Assembly: GCF_000426625.1 (NCBI RefSeq)
Contig: NZ_KE384547.1
Coordinates: forward strand, 480,986-544,985
Length of the DNA: 64,000 nucleotides
Origin: Psychrilyobacter atlanticus DSM 19335
GTDB lineage: Bacteria > Fusobacteriota > Fusobacteriia > Fusobacteriales > Fusobacteriaceae
Reading direction: 5' to 3'
The number at the start of each line of letters is the position of its first letter. Within the stretch, counting starts at the first letter, position 1. Position numbers and translations under genes: made by a program. This document shows positions 40,166-60,347 of this stretch, one piece after another. Under the pieces are notes generated by a model, which saw nothing but the letters and a program-made list of their open reading frames with translations, was not told where the DNA came from and did no database searches.

Positions 40166-40197
40166 TTTATGGTATTATACTATCATATTACCATAAA
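40166..40197. promoter_or_regulatory. Perfect 9-bp inverted repeat in the divergent promoter region
   Basis: TTTATGGTA (40166-40174) and TACCATAAA (40189-40197) flank 14 bp. On the minus strand a TATAAT (40174-40179) and on the plus strand a TATACT (40176-40181) fall inside it, so it probably covers both divergent promoters. It is a candidate operator of the adjacent Crp/Fnr protein; that link is inferred. Confidence 0.55.
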
Positions 40198-40208
40198 AAA
40201 ATAAATCA

Positions 40209-40311
40209 ACTCATATAAATTTGTGATATGGACAAAAGTTTCTACGGCTAACCTAAATTAGCCACTATGAGTAAATTGCGAGCAGTTTACTTTTTGGTAA
40301 GCTGTTTTTAG
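40209..40311 (+). ncRNA. Purine riboswitch (guanine/hypoxanthine type) with terminator platform
   Basis: Aptamer 40209-40272. P1 is ACTCATA/TATGAGT, and P2 is TTTGT/ACAAA with loop GATATGG. The junction contains GTTTCTAC, and P3 is GGCTAA/TTAGCC with CCTAAA between the arms. The J3/1 segment reads ACTATGAGT, with C at the position that pairs with guanine or hypoxanthine (U in adenine sensors). Platform: terminator CAGTTTAC/GTAAGCTG (40283-40304) plus five Ts. The competing antiterminator is AGTAAA (40270-40275) with TTTACT (40286-40291), which uses the 3' strand of P1. Ligand should therefore switch the gene off. Confidence 0.92.
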
Positions 40312-48670: not shown

Positions 48671-49366
48671 ATGGATTATATATTAAATGGATTTATAAGG
48701 GCATTTCAACTAATAATTTCTTTGAATAAGGAGTTATATGAAGTTATTTTCCTTTCAATAGGGGTTGCCTTTATTTCAACAACGATAATTTCAGTTGTAT
48801 TCATACCTATAGGATTAAAGTTGGGGCTGAAAAAATTTAAGGGAGAAGTTTTTTTTGCCAGAACAATATTCTCTTTGATGGGTGTTCCATCAGTAGTAGT
48901 AGGGCTGGTAGTAGCTTTAGTTTTATCTAGAAACTCAGTATTTGGCTTTTTAGAGTTACTTTATACACCTACAGCCATTATTATAGCTCAATCACTATTG
49001 ATCTTACCTCTATGCCTGAGCTTGACCTATACACTGAGCCGGTCTAAGGCACGAAAAATAAATAGAGTAGGGAAGATACTGGGTGGAAAGAGAAAAGACA
49101 GATTGTTTTTAATCCTGTTTGAATTAAAAGATGAACTGCTGATCATAGTTATAACTTGTTTTTCTCGAGCTATAACAGAGGTAGGGGCAGTGATGATCGT
49201 AGGTGGTAACCTAAAGGGCTCTACCAGGGTAATGACAACGTCTATCTCTATGTTAAACTCGATGGGAGACTATTCTACAGGGATAGCTCTAGGGATAATA
49301 TTATTGGGAATCACATTTTTAATTAATAATTTTATATATGTTCATAAGATCGAGGTGAATGACTAA
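48671..49366 (+). CDS. tupB: Tungstate/molybdate ABC permease, TupB type
   Basis: A 231-residue inner-membrane permease with about five helices. The ABC-contact loop (EAA motif) is visible at about 165-190 as CFSRAITEVGAVMIVGGN, typical of TupB. Others in the family have the same short size and the SLGVAF-type helix starts. It imports tungstate, or molybdate, with TupC and a TupA binding protein. No tupA adjoins. The start has a modest AAAAAGGAAA ribosome site. It stops 2 bases before tupC. Confidence 0.85.
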   Translation: MDYILNGFIRAFQLIISLNKELYEVIFLSIGVAFISTTIISVVFIPIGLKLGLKKFKGEVFFARTIFSLMGVPSVVVGLVVALVLSRNSVFGFLELLYTPTAIIIAQSLLILPLCLSLTYTLSRSKARKINRVGKILGGKRKDRLFLILFELKDELLIIVITCFSRAITEVGAVMIVGGNLKGSTRVMTTSISMLNSMGDYSTGIALGIILLGITFLINNFIYVHKIEVND

Positions 49367-49368
49367 TT

Positions 49369-49989
49369 ATGAAAAAGGATATAAAAATTAGAGATTTAAA
49401 AAAAGAATTTAATAGAAAAGGTATTTTAAATATTCCGGAACTCACTTTTAGAAAAGGCGGGATCAGTTATCTACTTGGAGAAAATGGAGCAGGGAAATCG
49501 ACCCTGTTAAATATTTTGGCTAAGGTAGATAAGGAGTATCAAGGCAGGATAGATGACTCTTTTAGAGAAGATGAGATCTCATTGGTAGATGCCAATCCAT
49601 ATATGCTCAAAGGAAATGTATATAAAAATATTGCATACCCATTGAAAATTAGAAAAAGAGAGAATATAGATAAGAGTATGACAGCTCTTTTGGATATATT
49701 TAATTTAAAGACATTGAAAAATAAGGAAGCTTCTAAACTATCTAGTGGAGAAACTCAGAAAGTTGCAATAGTAAGGGCACTTTCATTTTCTCCTAAACTA
49801 CTCATGCTAGATGAACCTACAGCAAACCTGGATAAATCAGCAAAACTTGAGCTTATAGATATTTTAGGGAAATATAATCAGCAAGGGAATACTATAATTG
49901 TTGTAACTCATGATCATAGTTTTTTTGAGAATTTAGAGGGAGAAAAAATAGTTTTGGAGAAATTAGGAATAGAACAGAAGAGGAGTTAA
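49369..49989 (+). CDS. tupC: Tungstate/molybdate ABC ATPase, TupC type
   Basis: A 206-residue ABC ATPase. Walker A is LLGENGAGKSTLL, the Q-loop region is LVDANPYML, the signature is KLSSGETQKVAIVRAL, Walker B is LLMLDEPTANLD and the H-loop is VVTHDHS. It is short, with no C-terminal Mop domain, unlike ModC. It starts 2 bases after tupB and ends 3 bases before moeA, so all are translationally coupled. Specificity for tungstate is inferred from TupB and the downstream tungsten-type oxidoreductase. Confidence 0.88.
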   Translation: MKKDIKIRDLKKEFNRKGILNIPELTFRKGGISYLLGENGAGKSTLLNILAKVDKEYQGRIDDSFREDEISLVDANPYMLKGNVYKNIAYPLKIRKRENIDKSMTALLDIFNLKTLKNKEASKLSSGETQKVAIVRALSFSPKLLMLDEPTANLDKSAKLELIDILGKYNQQGNTIIVVTHDHSFFENLEGEKIVLEKLGIEQKRS

Positions 49990-49992
49990 AAT

Positions 49993-51213
49993 ATGAATTT
50001 TTTGAAGGTAACGGATATAGATGAGATAGAGGAATTAATTTTAAAAAAAATACCCTCACTTAAAGGAAAGAAAGAGACATGTAAACTGGAAGAATCATTG
50101 GGCAGAGTACTATGTGAAAACATTGTAGCTAGTGTCAATGTTCCTGAATTTAATAGGTCTACAGTGGATGGGTATGCTATAAAGTCCAAAGAATCATTGG
50201 GAGCTTCCCAAGGTATACCTGCATTTTTCACCATAAAAGGTGAAGTTTTAATGGGGGAAAATACCTCTAAAAAATTAGAAAGCGGAGAGGCAATATATGT
50301 TCCCACAGGTGCTATGATCCCGACAGGTGCAGATTCTATGATAATGATAGAGTATTGTGAGATATTAGAGGATACTTTACTAGTGCATAAACCGGTGAGT
50401 AGTTTTGAAAATATAATGCTCATGGGAGAAGATGTAAAGGAAGATGATGTTATTCTAAAAAAAGGATCAACTATAACTCCTGAAAATATAGGAGCCTTAG
50501 CGTCTCTTGGGATATATGACCTGCCTGTATTTAAAAAGTTTAAATTTTCTATAATTTCCACAGGAGATGAGATCATAGGGGAAGATGAAGAGTACAAGAT
50601 GGGGAAAATTAGGGATGTGAACTCCTACACCCTTTCTTTAGCTATCCAGAAATTCGGAGTTGTGGTAGAGAAAAAAATAGTAAAAGATAATTTTGATACT
50701 ATACTAGAAGAGGTAAAAAAATCCACTGAAAAATCAGATATAGTTCTCATATCAGGGGGAAGTTCTGCCGGAAACTATGACTACACAAGTAAGGTTATAT
50801 CTCTACTGGATGAAGGAGAGGTTTTCATTCATGGGATCTCGATAAAACCTGGAAAACCTACCATTATTGGGAAATCTAACGATAAACTGATATTTGGATT
50901 ACCTGGGCATCCGATTTCTTCCATGGTTGTTTTTAATATTGTTGTAAAAAAACTTATTGAAAACCTATATTTTTGTGAGGATAAAGATGATTATTACTAT
51001 GGAACTTTATCTCACAATCTTCACTCGACTCCTGGACGGACAACATATCAGATGATCAACAAAACTATTGAAAATGATGATATAGTTATTAATCCTATTT
51101 TCGGAAAATCAGGGATGACCACTCTTATGACTAAATCCAATGGATATATAATATTGGAAAGTAATATAGAGGGACTAGAAAAAGGAAGCAGGGTAAAGGT
51201 ATATAGATTTTAG
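49993..51213 (+). CDS. moeA: Molybdopterin molybdenumtransferase MoeA
   Basis: A 406-residue enzyme that inserts molybdate or tungstate into adenylated molybdopterin. Blocks: VPEFNRSTVDGYAIKS, IYVPTGAMIPTGADSMIMIE, ISTGDEIIGEDEEYKMGKIRDVNSY and SGGSSAGNYDYTSKV, then [15 protein letters not shown] and FGLPGHPISSMVVF. The length is standard. It is immediately followed by a second, fused MoeA, the two-MoeA arrangement seen in organisms that use tungsten as well as molybdenum. Confidence 0.93.
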   Translation: MNFLKVTDIDEIEELILKKIPSLKGKKETCKLEESLGRVLCENIVASVNVPEFNRSTVDGYAIKSKESLGASQGIPAFFTIKGEVLMGENTSKKLESGEAIYVPTGAMIPTGADSMIMIEYCEILEDTLLVHKPVSSFENIMLMGEDVKEDDVILKKGSTITPENIGALASLGIYDLPVFKKFKFSIISTGDEIIGEDEEYKMGKIRDVNSYTLSLAIQKFGVVVEKKIVKDNFDTILEEVKKSTEKSDIVLISGGSSAGNYDYTSKVISLLDEGEVFIHGISIKPGKPTIIGKSNDKLIFGLPGHPISSMVVFNIVVKKLIENLYFCEDKDDYYYGTLSHNLHSTPGRTTYQMINKTIENDDIVINPIFGKSGMTTLMTKSNGYIILESNIEGLEKGSRVKVYRF

Positions 51214-51221
51214 GAGGCAGA

Positions 51222-53102
51222 ATGAGAAATACATTTATAAATAATATCAGCTTAGAAGAAACTAAACCACTGTTTTTTAACAGGATAGAAAAATATAGTA
51301 AAAAGGAGATCATCTCTACTGAGAAATCTTTGGGAAGAGTGACATCGTCACCTGTTTTTGCCAATGTGTCATCTCCTAATTTTAATGCATCAGCTATGGA
51401 TGGAATATTAGTAAGATCTAAAGATACAGAGATGGCCAGTGAAACCAATCCTGTAATACTAAAAAAAGAAAGTGATTTTCTCTATGTGAATACAGGGAAT
51501 CCTATTAAGAATAAATTTGACGCTGTTATCATGATAGAAGAAGTGGTGGAGTTAGAAAATGGAGATGTCAGAATAATAAAATCAGCACACCCATATCAGC
51601 ATATTAGAAATGTCGGGGAAGATATTATAAAAAACGATATGATCTTACCTTCATTTCATGAGATCAGACCAGAGGATATAGGAGCTTTATTTGCTGGAGG
51701 AATATTTGAGATAGAGGTAATTAAAAAGCCAGAAGTTGCGATCATTCCAACTGGAAGTGAGATAGTAGAAGATTATAGAAATTTAAAGGTAGGAGATATC
51801 ATAGATTCTAACTCTAGGATGTTTGAGGCTATGATTACCGTATCAGGAGGAGAGCCATATAGGTATTCACCTGTTAGGGATGAAAAGGAACTCCTAAAGA
51901 AAAATATATTAGATGCAGTGGAAAAAAATGATGTGGTAATTATCAATGCAGGATCATCAGCAGGAACCCATGATTATACTAAATCTCTCATAGAAGAATT
52001 AGGAGAGGTAATAATCCATGGTATAGCTATAAAACCAGGAAAACCGACTATCCTTGGGTTTATTAAGGGTAAACCTGTAATAGGAATACCAGGATACCCG
52101 GTATCAGCGTATTTTGTTTACCAGCAGTTTGTAAAATCACTCCTTGAGAAGATGTTATGTAGGGATGATGAAAAGGAAATCATAGTAAAAGCCAGCTTAT
52201 CTAAGAGAATCCACTCATCGTTAAAACATAAGGAGTTTGTCCGTATGACTTTAGGTTATGTAGGAGGAAAATTAGTTGCCACTCCATTAGACAGGGGAGC
52301 AGGAGTCAGTATGAGTTTGGTAAAAGCCGATGGAATCCTTGTGATAGCTAGAAACAATGAGGGACATGATCTAGGGGAAGAGGTAGAAATAAAACTCCTA
52401 AAACCGCTTTCGACTATAAAAAAATCCATAGTAGTGATTGGAAGTAACGATCCTATAATGGATAGGATTTCTGATAAGGTGAGACTATCACTATCCCACG
52501 TAGGAAGTTTTGGAGGGGTGTTAGCACTAAAGAAAAAGGAGACTACCATAGCTCCTATCCATATGTTGGATAGTAAAAGCGGGGATTATAATATAGATGT
52601 TTTAAATAAATATTTCCCATCAAGAGATGCAGCATTGATAAAAGGAATAAAGAGGGAACAGGGGCTGATGATTCCTAAAGGAAATCCAAAAAACATAAAA
52701 GGGATAGAAGATCTGACTCGAAATGATCTGGTATTTATGAACAGACAGAGGGGAGCAGGGACTCGTATTCTCTTGGATTATAACCTGGAAAAATTAGGTA
52801 TGGATAATAATGATATAAAGGGATATGAGAGGGAAGCTACAACTCATCTGGCAGCAGCAATGTCGGTGAAATCTTCAACCTGTGACCTGGCTTTAGGAGT
52901 TAAATCCGCAGCAGATATATTGGATCTGGATTTCATATCTGTAGACTATGAGGATTATGATTTTGCAGTTTTAAAGGACAGTTTGGAAGATGAAAGAGTT
53001 TTAAAATTTATTGAATATATAAAATCGGAAGAGTTTTTTAAAGAAGTGGAAAATATACCGGGATATAAGTTAGAAAATCCAGGGGAGATAATAGAATTTT
53101 AG
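51222..53102 (+). CDS. MoeA fused to a periplasmic-binding-protein-like domain
   Basis: A 626-residue two-domain protein. Residues about 1-400 are a second MoeA ([65 protein letters not shown]). Residues about 410-626 form a PBP-like domain ([58 protein letters not shown]) like the ligand-binding core of ModA/TupA-type proteins. It has no signal peptide, so the domain is cytoplasmic. It could hold oxyanion for delivery to the MoeA active site or sense it; both are inference. GGAGG precedes the ATG. Confidence 0.9.
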
Positions 53103-56477: not shown

Positions 56478-56954
56478 ATGAATTTTACTTTATATATTAT
56501 TACCATATTTCTTTTAATATTATCTTACTTTAAAGACAAAAAGAAGACCATGAAGGCACTGAAAAAAGCTTTGAAAGCATTTGAAAATATACTGCCCCAA
56601 TTTCTGGGAGTAATTGTTCTTGTTGGAATACTTTTAGCTGTTTTTAATCCGGAGATAATATCTGGGATTATAGGGAACAGATCTGGATGGTTAGGAGTCT
56701 TAATTTCGGGAATTATAGGAGCAATAACTTTAATACCGGGTTTTGTGGCTTTTCCCACAGCGGCAATGCTGTTGGAAAATGGTGCAGGATATATGCAGAT
56801 TGCAGCTTTTATATCTACTCTGATGATGGTAGGAGTTATAACACTTCCTATCGAAATGAAATATTTTGGGAAGCGTTTTGCTATTGTAAGAAATTCAATA
56901 GCATTTGTGTTTTCTTTTGTTGTAGCTTATATAATAGGGATTTTGGTGGTATAA
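56478..56954 (+). CDS. Permease-like membrane protein, first half of a split pair
   Basis: A 158-residue protein with about four membrane helices. It resembles one half of the DUF318/ArsP-type permeases (LPQFLGVIVLVGILLAVFNP, then GITLxPGFxAFP-like AITLIPGFVAFPTAAMLLENGAG). The second half is encoded by the next gene one base later. The transported substrate is unknown. GGAGAG precedes the ATG. As the following genes belong to tungsten metabolism, metal or oxyanion export is possible but unproven. Confidence 0.7.
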   Translation: MNFTLYIITIFLLILSYFKDKKKTMKALKKALKAFENILPQFLGVIVLVGILLAVFNPEIISGIIGNRSGWLGVLISGIIGAITLIPGFVAFPTAAMLLENGAGYMQIAAFISTLMMVGVITLPIEMKYFGKRFAIVRNSIAFVFSFVVAYIIGILVV

Positions 56955-56955
56955 G

Positions 56956-57486
56956 ATGAGATTTATAAAAAGATATAAATTTTTAATGACAACACTTATA
57001 ATTTTGACTATTCTATTTGTAGTAAATTATGAATTAGGAATAAAAGCCGTGGATATTACTGTTTATTCTCTAAAAGAGATGGTTTTTGTAATCCCTCCTG
57101 TATTTGTATTACTGGGGCTCCTCGATGTGTGGGTACCTAAGGAAACCATGGTGAAATATATGGGAGAAAGATCAGGGATAAAGGGAATTTTACTGTCGAT
57201 ATTTATTGGTTCGGCAGCTGCAGGGCCTCTCTATGGAGCTTTTCCGGTGGCCGCTGTATTTATGAAAAAGGGAGTTAAGTTCAGCAACATCATTATATTT
57301 TTAGGGGCTTGGTCCACAACTAAGATCCCCATGTTTCTCTTTGAGATGGCATCACTTGGGACGAAGTTTGCTCTAAGCCGTCTAATAATAGATATCTTCG
57401 GAATAATCATTATTTCAGGGATAATCAGCAGGATAATTCCTAAAGAGGAGATAGAGAAGATATATATTAATGCAGAGAAATTTTAG
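56956..57486 (+). CDS. Permease-like membrane protein, second half of a split pair
   Basis: A 176-residue protein with about four or five membrane helices. It carries the matching half of the ArsP-type fold: VFVLLGLLDVWVPKETMVKYMGERSG, then GSAAAGPLYGAFPVAAVFMKKG, which mirrors the AFPTAAMLL repeat of the preceding protein. It starts one base after the previous stop, so the two must be translated together and probably form a heterodimer. No Cys pair typical of arsenic permeases is evident. Confidence 0.7.
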   Translation: MRFIKRYKFLMTTLIILTILFVVNYELGIKAVDITVYSLKEMVFVIPPVFVLLGLLDVWVPKETMVKYMGERSGIKGILLSIFIGSAAAGPLYGAFPVAAVFMKKGVKFSNIIIFLGAWSTTKIPMFLFEMASLGTKFALSRLIIDIFGIIIISGIISRIIPKEEIEKIYINAEKF

Positions 57487-57512
57487 AGGGTTAAAGCTAT
57501 AGTGAAAGAAAT

Positions 57513-57540
57513 TTGAAATAAAAAATATATATTGTATACT
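57513..57540 (+). promoter_or_regulatory. Promoter of the aldehyde oxidoreductase gene
   Basis: TTGAAA at 57513-57518 and TATACT at 57535-57540 with a 16-bp spacer. Transcription would start near 57547, just before the structured leader. Confidence 0.6.
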
Positions 57541-57565
57541 TTAATGTAAGGTTATTATATTAATG

Positions 57566-57670
57566 TTATCTCCGAGTGGAAATTTCTAAGGATCTTTGAT
57601 ATCTATGAAATGACACCAATGGGTCTTTTAGGAAACTGAATTTCCTCCCGCATTTGGAAAGGAGTAGACC
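57566..57670 (+). ncRNA. Molybdenum/tungsten cofactor riboswitch-like leader
   Basis: The leader contains TTTCCTCCCGCATTTGGAAA followed by GGAG, which matches the conserved 3' core of the Moco RNA motif (CCUCCCG-AU-UGGAAAGG in the E. coli moaA leader as I recall it). GGAAA-CTGAA-TTTCC forms the hairpin before it, and CTCC at 57570 can pair with GGAG at 57661. ATTTC/GAAAT may form a side arm, so I cannot say whether it is a Moco or a Tuco version. The gene behind it is a tungsten-type enzyme. The start codon lies 21 bases after the motif. Confidence 0.8.
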
Positions 57671-57690
57671 AAAATAAGGAGGAACACATT

Positions 57691-59418
57691 ATGAAAATTT
57701 GTAGAATTGACATGAGTACCAAGACCATTAGTTTTGAAGAGGTAAAAGAGGAATATGTAGGATTAGGTGGAAGAGGACTGACATCTCGGATTATATCTGA
57801 TGAAGTTGATGCAACATCACATCCATTAGGAAAGAACAATAAGTTAGTAATAGCTCCAGGTCTTTTTGCAGGAACTTTAGCACCAAGTTCGGGAAGACTT
57901 AGTGTAGGAACTAAGAGTCCATTGACTGGTGGAATAAAGGAATCAAATGCAGGGGGAACAGCAGCTCAGAGTTTGGCAAAATTAGGGTATAAGGCAGTTA
58001 TTATAGAGAATAAACCTAAAAACCAGGAATTAAACCTTATAAAAATAACTCCTGAAGGAATTACAATAGAGGATGCCGGTTACTTAAAGATGAAAGGTAA
58101 CTACGAGGTAGGAAATATCTTGAGGGAAAAACATGGAGAAAAAGTAACTGTGATGTCCCTTGGACAGGCAGGAGAAATGAGATTAACTGCAGCATCAATT
58201 GCAGTTACAGACCCTGAGGGAAGACCTACAAGACATTGTGGAAGAGGTGGAACTGGGGCAGTTTTAGGATCTAAAGGAATAAAAGCGATAGTTATTGATC
58301 CCGGAAAAGAAAATAAAGTTGAGTACCATAATATAGATAATTTTAGAACAGCGGCTAGAAGCTTCTCAAAATCAGTCTTAGCTCATCCTGTATCTGGACA
58401 AGGTCTGCCAGCCTATGGAACGGCAGTTCTTGTAAATGTTTTAAATGAAGCTGGAGGATTACCTACAGATAACTTTAGAGACGGCAGATTTGAATTTGCA
58501 GAAAATATTAGTGGAGAAACGATGTTTGAAACTATTGAAAAAAGAAAGGGTCAGACAACTCATGCCTGTCATCCTGGATGTATCATGAGATGTTCTCAAG
58601 TATACAATGATAAAAAAGGAGACTATCTTACAGGTGGATTTGAGTATGAGACTATATGGGCATTTGGAGCTCATTGTCACATAAAAGATCTGGATTCAAT
58701 AGCTCAAATGGATAAGATGTGTGATGATTTTGGAGTAGACACTATAGATACCGGAGTTGCAGTAGGAGTAGCAATGGAAGGTGGATATTTAGAGTTTGGT
58801 GATGATAAAGGTGCGATAAAACTATTGGAAGAGATCGGTAAAGGATCACCTATTGGAAGAATCATAGGTAATGGAGCTGCATTTACAGGGCAGGCATTTG
58901 GAACAGAGAGGGTGCCAGTAGTAAAAAGGCAGGCACTTCCAGCTTATGACCCAAGATCGGTAAAGGGGCAGGGAGTAACCTATGCAACGACTCCAATGGG
59001 GGCAGACCATACGGCAGGATACGCAGTTACATCGAATATCCTAGGTGTAGGAGGAGTTGTCGATCCATTAAAGAAAGATGGACAAGTGGAATTATCTAGA
59101 AACCTTCAGATAGCAACGGCAGTTTTAGATAGTTTAGGTTTCTGTATATTTGTAGCTTTCCCTATCTTAGATGATGAAACAGCGTTCCCTGAAGTAGCTA
59201 ATATGATAAATTCAAAATATAATACTAATTTTGATATTAATGAGATCCTTGCAAGTGGACAGGAAGTATTAAAGCTGGAAAAAGCATTTAATCAAAGAGC
59301 AGGAATAACAAAGGCTCAAGATAGACTACCTGAATTTTTTAAAGAGGAAGCTGTTGGTCCTCATAATGTAACCTTTGATTTTACAGATGAAGAATTAGAC
59401 GAAACATTGGAATTTTAG
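57691..59418 (+). CDS. aor: Aldehyde ferredoxin oxidoreductase, tungsten type
   Basis: A 575-residue enzyme of the AOR family that oxidises aldehydes to acids, or runs in reverse, with ferredoxin, using a bis-pyranopterin tungsten cofactor and one Fe4S4 cluster. The N-terminal domain (GGRGLTSRII, SPLTGGIKESNAGG) holds the pterin. The cluster cysteines are Cys293, Cys297 and Cys301 (CHPGCIMRC) and probably Cys485 (LGFCIF). The first spacing is x3, where the Pyrococcus enzyme has x2. AAGGAGGA precedes the ATG. A MoaD-like gene follows 10 bases later. Confidence 0.93.
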   Translation: MKICRIDMSTKTISFEEVKEEYVGLGGRGLTSRIISDEVDATSHPLGKNNKLVIAPGLFAGTLAPSSGRLSVGTKSPLTGGIKESNAGGTAAQSLAKLGYKAVIIENKPKNQELNLIKITPEGITIEDAGYLKMKGNYEVGNILREKHGEKVTVMSLGQAGEMRLTAASIAVTDPEGRPTRHCGRGGTGAVLGSKGIKAIVIDPGKENKVEYHNIDNFRTAARSFSKSVLAHPVSGQGLPAYGTAVLVNVLNEAGGLPTDNFRDGRFEFAENISGETMFETIEKRKGQTTHACHPGCIMRCSQVYNDKKGDYLTGGFEYETIWAFGAHCHIKDLDSIAQMDKMCDDFGVDTIDTGVAVGVAMEGGYLEFGDDKGAIKLLEEIGKGSPIGRIIGNGAAFTGQAFGTERVPVVKRQALPAYDPRSVKGQGVTYATTPMGADHTAGYAVTSNILGVGGVVDPLKKDGQVELSRNLQIATAVLDSLGFCIFVAFPILDDETAFPEVANMINSKYNTNFDINEILASGQEVLKLEKAFNQRAGITKAQDRLPEFFKEEAVGPHNVTFDFTDEELDETLEF

Positions 59419-59428
59419 GAGTATTTAG

Positions 59429-59677
59429 ATGGGAAATATCCAGATAGAGGTGAGACTCTTTGCTTATTTGAGGGAATTATTCCCTCCGGAAAGCAGGGGA
59501 GTAAAAAAGGTAGAAGTAAAGGAATGTCTGACAATAGATAACTTGATGGATGAGATTGGAATCGTAGAAAAGGAAATTATGATAGTTATGATCAATGGGG
59601 TAAGGAAATTAGATTATAATGAATCTTTGAAAGAAGGAGATCGAGTATCCATCTTCCCCCCTGTAGGAGGAGGATAA
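59429..59677 (+). CDS. MoaD/ThiS-family sulfur carrier
   Basis: An 82-residue ubiquitin-fold protein ending in the Gly-Gly tail that is adenylated and thiocarboxylated (SIFPPVGGG). IQIEVRLFAYLRELFP at the start is typical of MoaD. It donates sulfur for the dithiolene of molybdopterin; proteins in this position next to AOR genes are often called the AOR-linked MoaD. It lies between aor and the ThiF/HesA-type activator, one base from the latter. The tail has three Gly, one more than needed. Confidence 0.9.
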   Translation: MGNIQIEVRLFAYLRELFPPESRGVKKVEVKECLTIDNLMDEIGIVEKEIMIVMINGVRKLDYNESLKEGDRVSIFPPVGGG

Positions 59678-59678
59678 G

Positions 59679-60347
59679 ATGGATAGATATTCCAGAAATA
59701 AAAAAATGATATCGACCGATGAACAAAAGAAATTATCTGAATCTACAGTAGTGATCTTAGGTGTAGGAGGCTTAGGTGGATATGCACTTGAGATGCTTGC
59801 AAGGGTAGGAGTGGGAAAACTTCTCCTTGTAGATTTTGATAAATTTGAGGTGTCTAATTTAAACAGGCAGATAATTTCTACAGAGGGTAATTTAGGTTTA
59901 TTAAAAGTAGAGGAAGCCAGGAAGAGGGTGGAAGCTATAAACCCGGAGATAGAAGTTGTGGCAATCAATAAAAAGATATCTGATCATAATATCGATGCAG
60001 TCATAAAAGGTGCAGATATAGTAGTGGATGCACTAGACTCATCTACGTTAAAAAAGGTTGTGGAGAAATCTTGTGCGAGAAATAAGATTCCCATGGTTCA
60101 TGGAGCTATAGGAGGATGGATAGCACAGGTAGCAGTGATCATGCCGGGGGATTTTATTTTGGATAAAATTTATAGTGAGGATGATCTGGAAAATAAGATG
60201 GGAAATCCCAGCTTCACCCCTGCATTGGCAGCTTCAATACAGGTAGGAGAAGTAATTAAGTTTTTATTGAATAAAGGAGAACTATTAAACAACGAGGTCT
60301 TATATATTGACCTTGAGTACAATAGTTTTACGAGGTTGAAAGTGTAG
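59679..60347 (+). CDS. ThiF/MoeB/HesA-family adenylyltransferase
   Basis: A 222-residue E1-like enzyme. The nucleotide-binding motif is VVILGVGGLGGYALEMLARVG, followed by the conserved VDFDKFEVSNLNRQI with the Arg finger and DALDSSTLKK. The end carries NPSFTPALAASIQVGEVIK. The paired CxxC zinc motifs of MoeB and ThiF are absent, as in HesA-type members. It should activate the Gly-Gly tail of the MoaD-like protein encoded one base upstream. The three genes aor, moaD-like and hesA-like form one transcript ended by a terminator. Confidence 0.9.
   Translation: MDRYSRNKKMISTDEQKKLSESTVVILGVGGLGGYALEMLARVGVGKLLLVDFDKFEVSNLNRQIISTEGNLGLLKVEEARKRVEAINPEIEVVAINKKISDHNIDAVIKGADIVVDALDSSTLKKVVEKSCARNKIPMVHGAIGGWIAQVAVIMPGDFILDKIYSEDDLENKMGNPSFTPALAASIQVGEVIKFLLNKGELLNNEVLYIDLEYNSFTRLKV

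Follow-up and report, generated by a model that had tools for sequence, protein, structure and literature searches.

The leader of aor, a gene for a cofactor-dependent enzyme in Psychrilyobacter atlanticus DSM 19335, contains a Moco/Tuco RNA of the P3-less type, which Regulski et al. (2008) linked to the tungsten cofactor (Tuco). The end of P1 lies 26 nt before the start codon of aor, and the aptamer would plausibly couple synthesis of the apoenzyme to cofactor supply. The RNA may be a Tuco-sensing translational ON switch; taken as a whole, this reading, which draws on folding predictions, has in our estimate an even chance of being right. The window that was analysed is a stretch of 64,000 nucleotides of the genome, and its relevant features are listed in Table 1.

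The RNA and its gene

The segment 57558-57680 of the forward strand matches the Rfam model RF01055 (Moco RNA) over its full length (model positions 1-135), with a score of 59.8 bits, compared with a gathering score of 36 bits, and an E-value of 7.5e-12 for the whole window. It is the single match in the 3.54-Mb genome, and a phylum-specific model recovered it again. We regard membership of the RF01055 family as almost certain. The sequence-only reading had recognized a Moco-family core in the leader of an AOR gene and had named the covariance model as the test of it; the score above threshold and the AFOR_N and AFOR_C domains of the downstream gene bear this out. A chance resemblance to the Moco core has a negligible probability and is refuted by the E-value, by the structure-bearing match over the full model, and by conservation of the RNA in relatives. 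The conserved 3' core CCUCCCGCAUUUGGAAAGGAG occupies positions 57644-57664, and the start codon of aor (57691) follows 26 nt further on, roughly the 20 bases first estimated.

The P3 hairpin was looked for in the window RNA, both in the Rfam alignment and in the fold of the P2-P4 segment, and is absent: this part of the model is deleted, and P2 and P4 are separated by just 4 nt (C57617-A-A-U57620). The possible side arm of the earlier reading was thus not borne out, and because P3 is absent, the RNA is grouped with the proposed Tuco-sensing type. The remaining helices are supported by an alignment of nine Fusobacteriota leaders, in which 90% of the alignment cells pair and five pairs are changed on both sides, more than in a slid-partner control. 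Four of these changes fall in P4, the middle of which is unpaired in the genus of the window, and one compensatory pair is in P2. P5 is formed by CC 57647-57648 and GG 57656-57657. A plain fold of the leader is no more stable than shuffled sequences (z -0.5), and therefore thermodynamics alone fails to reveal the aptamer.

Table 1. Features of the aor leader and the surrounding window
Feature	Position	Strand	Basis or remark
Sigma-70-like promoter TTGAAA-16-TATACT	57513-57540	+	10/12 matches
P1, 5' strand CUCC	57570-57573	+	Pairs with 57661-57664; invariant in nine Fusobacteriota leaders
P2 with tetraloop-receptor-like CUAAG (57586-57590) / UAUG (57604-57607)	57576-57616	+	
4-nt link CAAU in place of P3	57617-57620	+	Gap in Rfam alignment; fold of P2-P4 segment
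P4 with GAAA tetraloop (57632-57635)	57621-57646	+	Rfam and nine-leader alignments
Putative anti-Shine-Dalgarno UUCCUCC inside aptamer	57642-57648	+	Pairs with GGAGGAA 57678-57684 in predicted ligand-free fold (MFE, ensemble)
P5 and conserved core CC...GG	57647-57657	+	Rfam and nine-leader alignments
P1, 3' strand GGAG	57661-57664	+	Rfam and nine-leader alignments
Shine-Dalgarno AAGGAGG	57676-57682	+	8 nt before start codon, outside P1
aor, AOR-family (tungsten) aldehyde oxidoreductase, 575 aa	57691-59418	+	AFOR_N, AFOR_C
MoaD/ThiS-like sulfur carrier, 3' of aor	59429-59677	+	
MoeB/ThiF-like adenylyltransferase	59679-60347	+	
tupB-tupC-like tungstate ABC transporter permease and ATPase	48671-49989	+	Below curated equivalog cut-offs
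moeA and moeA-PBP fusion	49993-53102	+	

The claim that the leader has its own promoter stands in part. The promoter-like sequence has similar TTGAAA...TATACT counterparts at the equivalent place in other leaders of the genus, but such sites are not more frequent in the region than in shuffled sequence (two found, 2.1 expected). Directly 5' of the leader are two adjacent genes (56478-57486, forward strand), each similar to one half of an ArsP_1-type permease. A purine riboswitch (RF00167, 62.5 bits) at 40191-40287 of the forward strand precedes a lipoprotein gene, by its appearance a BMP-family nucleoside-binding protein.

The aor product, whose best solved relatives are 9mqx and 1aor, is encoded by the single AFOR_C gene of the genome. 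On the same strand 5' of the leader, the window contains moaB-, moaA- and tupB/tupC-like genes, moeA, and moeA-PBP. The tupA gene is not with tupBC and adjoins a formate dehydrogenase gene with an in-frame TGA (L209, G000:C3:129768-130535, and L024). The TGA probably encodes selenocysteine, and the position of tupA beside this gene hints that the enzyme may use tungsten. The genome encodes two formate dehydrogenases with in-frame TGA and two xanthine-dehydrogenase-type (XDH) molybdenum hydroxylases. Because of the latter, both metals are probably used, and the selectivity of the aptamer for its ligand matters here. MoaE (PF02391) was not found in the window's genome (G000) or in any of the 98 Fusobacteriota genomes searched, with positive controls in 11 of 14 cases, although G000 has MoaA, MoaC, a MoaD-like protein, MoeA, and several Mo/W enzymes. 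MoaE is also missing or weakly matched in several AOR-bearing Firmicutes. The gap would reflect either a very divergent MoaE or else another molybdopterin synthase.

Distribution, P3 status and expression platforms

The aptamer is shown to be tied in evolution to the AOR clade of the window. RF01055 occurs in 11 of the 98 Fusobacteriota genomes and AFOR_C in 20. In all nine genomes with the AOR type of the window, the RNA immediately precedes the AOR gene in the same orientation, and RF01055 is absent from all nine Fusobacteriota genomes with other AOR types only. Two g25 genomes have both RNA and AOR, far apart in G090 and on separate contigs in G088. The closest named loci belong to Fusobacteriaceae MAGs (UBA2433, 4572_74) and Propionigenium maris. 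The leader heads the gene order aor-moaD-moeB-tupA-tupB-tupC-moeA-moeA in genus g9, and aor-moaD-moeB-moeA-moeA in P. maris. The two g25 genomes share a P3-less RNA away from the AOR genes (L020, 5171-5330, in G090; L010/L021 in G088). An intrinsic terminator comes immediately after this conserved RNA, and the next 350 nt or so contain no obvious gene. The RNA is a candidate orphan or trans-acting riboswitch.

P3 status was surveyed in 41 genomes, all picked because they contain a relative of the window's AOR, and 29 of them hold RF01055. A phylum-specific model yielded about 98 distinct RNAs, the Fusobacteriota ones included, which were classified by folding the P2-P4 segment; L110 was called P3-containing and L152 unclear by eye, L183 was left out, and downstream genes were assigned by tblastn. 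The AOR-linked RNAs, from nine lineages, comprised 15 without P3 and none with it, and the FDH-type-linked RNAs seven and none. Those linked to tup genes were P3-less in ten cases, P3-containing in one, and unclear in one. The RNAs of cofactor-synthesis genes included 25 with P3 and four without. When the AOR leaders were collapsed to the nine lineages, which are not fully independent, the difference from cofactor genes had a p of about 4e-6. The survey, whose genomes were selected without regard to P3, reproduces the 2008 correlation between P3 and gene class. The sequence-only reading had described the family for genes of synthesis and transport as well as enzymes, in agreement with the founding paper (PMC2408646). 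Tandem P3-less RNAs, two or three in a row, were observed at L156, L159/L161, L145, and L164/L165/L171 (G106, G133), and they resemble a reported array of three in Syntrophomonas wolfei.

P3 status and expression platform both differ between enzyme, transport and synthesis gene classes. The two known OFF layouts are a terminator after the aptamer and a Shine-Dalgarno sequence within P1 (PMC2408646). The window leader has neither: terminator scans detected no intrinsic terminator after the aptamer on the forward strand, and the Shine-Dalgarno sequence begins 12 nt past the 3' strand of P1. Fourteen of the 15 AOR leaders have no terminator and a Shine-Dalgarno sequence outside P1. A terminator downstream of the aptamer was found in none of the 15 AOR leaders versus 35 of the 41 tup/moa/moe leaders, the latter a lower bound, since the scan missed terminators visible by eye (L108-L110). 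In L150, L123 and L125, which precede cofactor-related genes, P1 lies so near the start codon that its 3' strand serves as the Shine-Dalgarno sequence. The window, its Fusobacteriota relatives, Halonatronum, Halanaerobacter, and a Peptostreptococcaceae MAG share a start codon 16-22 nt past the 3' end of the model and a strong Shine-Dalgarno sequence outside P1. The spacing is similar in L148, where the aor operon begins with a ferredoxin-like gene, and is 43 nt in L122. Halonatronum (L029) combines both kinds in one locus, with a free Shine-Dalgarno sequence before aor and a terminator before tupABC.

The aor leader of Thermincola (L181) has a terminator, GCAAAGGAAGGUAAC...UUUCCUUUGC, detected only when the scan was begun inside the aptamer. 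The 3' strand of P1 lies entirely within the 5' arm of this terminator; a formed aptamer would therefore block termination and favour read-through, which would make this an ON layout before an AOR gene. The terminator overlaps P1 in the same way in L178, which precedes an iron-sulfur subunit operon, and in L192 and L194. The scan for such overlaps wrongly flagged L108, L109 and L126, mistook an anti-Shine-Dalgarno hairpin for a terminator in L002, L005 and L128, and gave a weak flag for L122 that looks spurious. L178, L181, L192 and L194 are short, divergent P3-less variants with the core CCUGCC and GCRAAGG and with P5 extended by a G-C pair.

Predicted switching and regulatory sign

In the proposed mechanism, the UUCCUCC segment of the ligand-free aptamer core would pair with the Shine-Dalgarno region of aor and block initiation. 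Binding of Tuco would lock the same bases in P4 and P5, with P1 closing 26 nt ahead of the start codon; the Shine-Dalgarno sequence would then be accessible, and synthesis of the apoenzyme would be limited to conditions in which the cofactor is available. The predicted hairpin also pairs UUUGG (57653-57657) with CCAAA (57669-57673). The Shine-Dalgarno core is unpaired with a predicted probability of 0.015 in the free ensemble, where it pairs almost wholly with the aptamer core, and of 0.84 when the aptamer is enforced. The Shine-Dalgarno sequence is thus predicted to be hidden in the free state and exposed with the aptamer, which suggests translational ON control. The aptamer is predicted to free the Shine-Dalgarno sequence in all AOR leaders tested, although slightly in some, and the change in exposure is small in L002-L005 (genus g9). 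In a model that ignores tertiary contacts and the ligand, the enforced aptamer is less stable than the alternative fold by about 11 kcal/mol. In L011, the linker hairpin is kept through a paired change of UUUGG/CCAAA to UUUGA/UCAAA, which lends mild support to the putative hairpin between the Shine-Dalgarno sequence and the core.

Special evolution of this pairing in aor leaders was not supported by comparison with shuffled linkers and with the Shine-Dalgarno sequences of other genes. When strong Shine-Dalgarno sequences of other genes of the genome are put at the aor position, their pairing with the core is comparable. The complementarity of the aor Shine-Dalgarno sequence to the core is not exceptional, with 17 of 58 genes as good, and shuffled linkers come close (49 of 300). 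The pairing may be a by-product of the resemblance of the core to the anti-Shine-Dalgarno sequence of 16S rRNA. Since ordinary Shine-Dalgarno sequences pair similarly, the pairing is no independent proof of an ON switch; the switch may simply exploit the anti-Shine-Dalgarno-like core, or the pairing may be irrelevant. Two P3-less RNAs that precede FDH-type operons, L120 (1506-1660) and L146, show an exceptional complementarity between core and Shine-Dalgarno sequence (GCCUCCC / GGGAGGC-like): none of 20 and none of 14 genes, respectively, are as good.

The same Tuco-responsive RNA might instead work as an OFF switch, in which the ligand-bound aptamer lowers translation of aor, for instance by steric hindrance near the Shine-Dalgarno sequence or by mRNA decay. 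The sole Moco RNA for which we found functional data, that of E. coli moaA, is indeed OFF (PMC2408646). We nevertheless consider an OFF switch unlikely, since the window leader has its Shine-Dalgarno sequence beyond P1 and has no terminator, the surveyed leaders with the Shine-Dalgarno sequence in P1 occur before cofactor-related genes, and repression by the cofactor of its own dependent enzyme is hard to rationalise. It is rather improbable that the ligand is Moco, or that the aptamer responds equally to Moco and Tuco, instead of being specific for Tuco. The Mo hydroxylases and formate dehydrogenases of the genome suggest that Moco is probably present too, the assignment of P3-less RNAs to Tuco is correlational, and the E. 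coli RNA lost regulation, rather than switching ligand, when P3 was deleted; against this, RNAs without P3 go with AOR and tungstate transporter genes in our independent genome set as they did in 2008. A conserved leader that does not switch, such as an mRNA stability element or a decayed riboswitch, would accord with orphan copies that have no nearby gene (L008/L010). The covariation in P2 and P4, a core that is strictly kept in nine genomes, and the constant place before the same gene make this very unlikely.

A point against the preferred Tuco-sensing ON switch arises where aor shares an operon with tup and moeA: ON logic would there amount to positive feedback unless it is confined to translation of aor. 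We tentatively propose, as a possibility somewhat short of even, that the regulatory sign follows gene class, so that P3-less RNAs would be ON before tungsten-enzyme genes and OFF before genes of tungstate transport or cofactor synthesis. The ON sign would be obtained through a Shine-Dalgarno sequence freed by the aptamer or through a terminator competing with P1, and opposite signs would sometimes occur in one locus, as in that of Halonatronum. The window leader would use the aptamer's own CCUCC core as the anti-Shine-Dalgarno sequence.

Comparison with known systems

That P3-less Moco RNAs sense Tuco rather than Moco is a proposal dating from 2008. Among 176 cases, Regulski et al. counted 58 RNAs without P3 and linked these to Tuco by correlation; their paper demonstrated no direct ligand binding (PMC2408646). 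The genome of the window offers a clean test, with one aptamer, one AOR, no P3, and probable users of both cofactors in one cell. The gene context of the window RNA fits the known Tuco proposal, and Fusobacteriota go unnamed in PMC2408646 and in both later surveys that we searched. What is new here is the platform contrast between aor and tup/moe leaders, which is a prediction, not a demonstration, of opposite regulatory signs for the same aptamer.

The window RNA shares P1, P2, P4, P5, the GAAA tetraloop and its receptor, the core, the lack of P3, and the tungsten context with the 'Tuco' type of PMC2408646, but its Shine-Dalgarno sequence outside P1 and its lack of a terminator correspond to neither platform described there. 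The Moco riboswitch of E. coli moaA, which represses on Moco and loses regulation upon P3 deletion (PMC2408646), has the same aptamer architecture and core; however, it has P3, precedes a biosynthesis operon, and contains the ribosome-binding site in P1, whereas the window RNA has no P3, precedes an enzyme gene, and leaves the ribosome-binding site beyond P1. The P3-less RNAs before tupABC (for example the second copy in L029, and also L139 and L172) have the same aptamer, and some of them share a locus with an aor-linked copy, but they differ in the intrinsic terminator downstream of P1, which is an OFF layout. The Thermincola leader, like that of the window, has a P3-less aptamer before an AOR, 59% identical, with moaD next; unlike it, it has a putative transcriptional ON layout, in which the terminator competes with P1, and a short divergent aptamer with the core CCUGCC.
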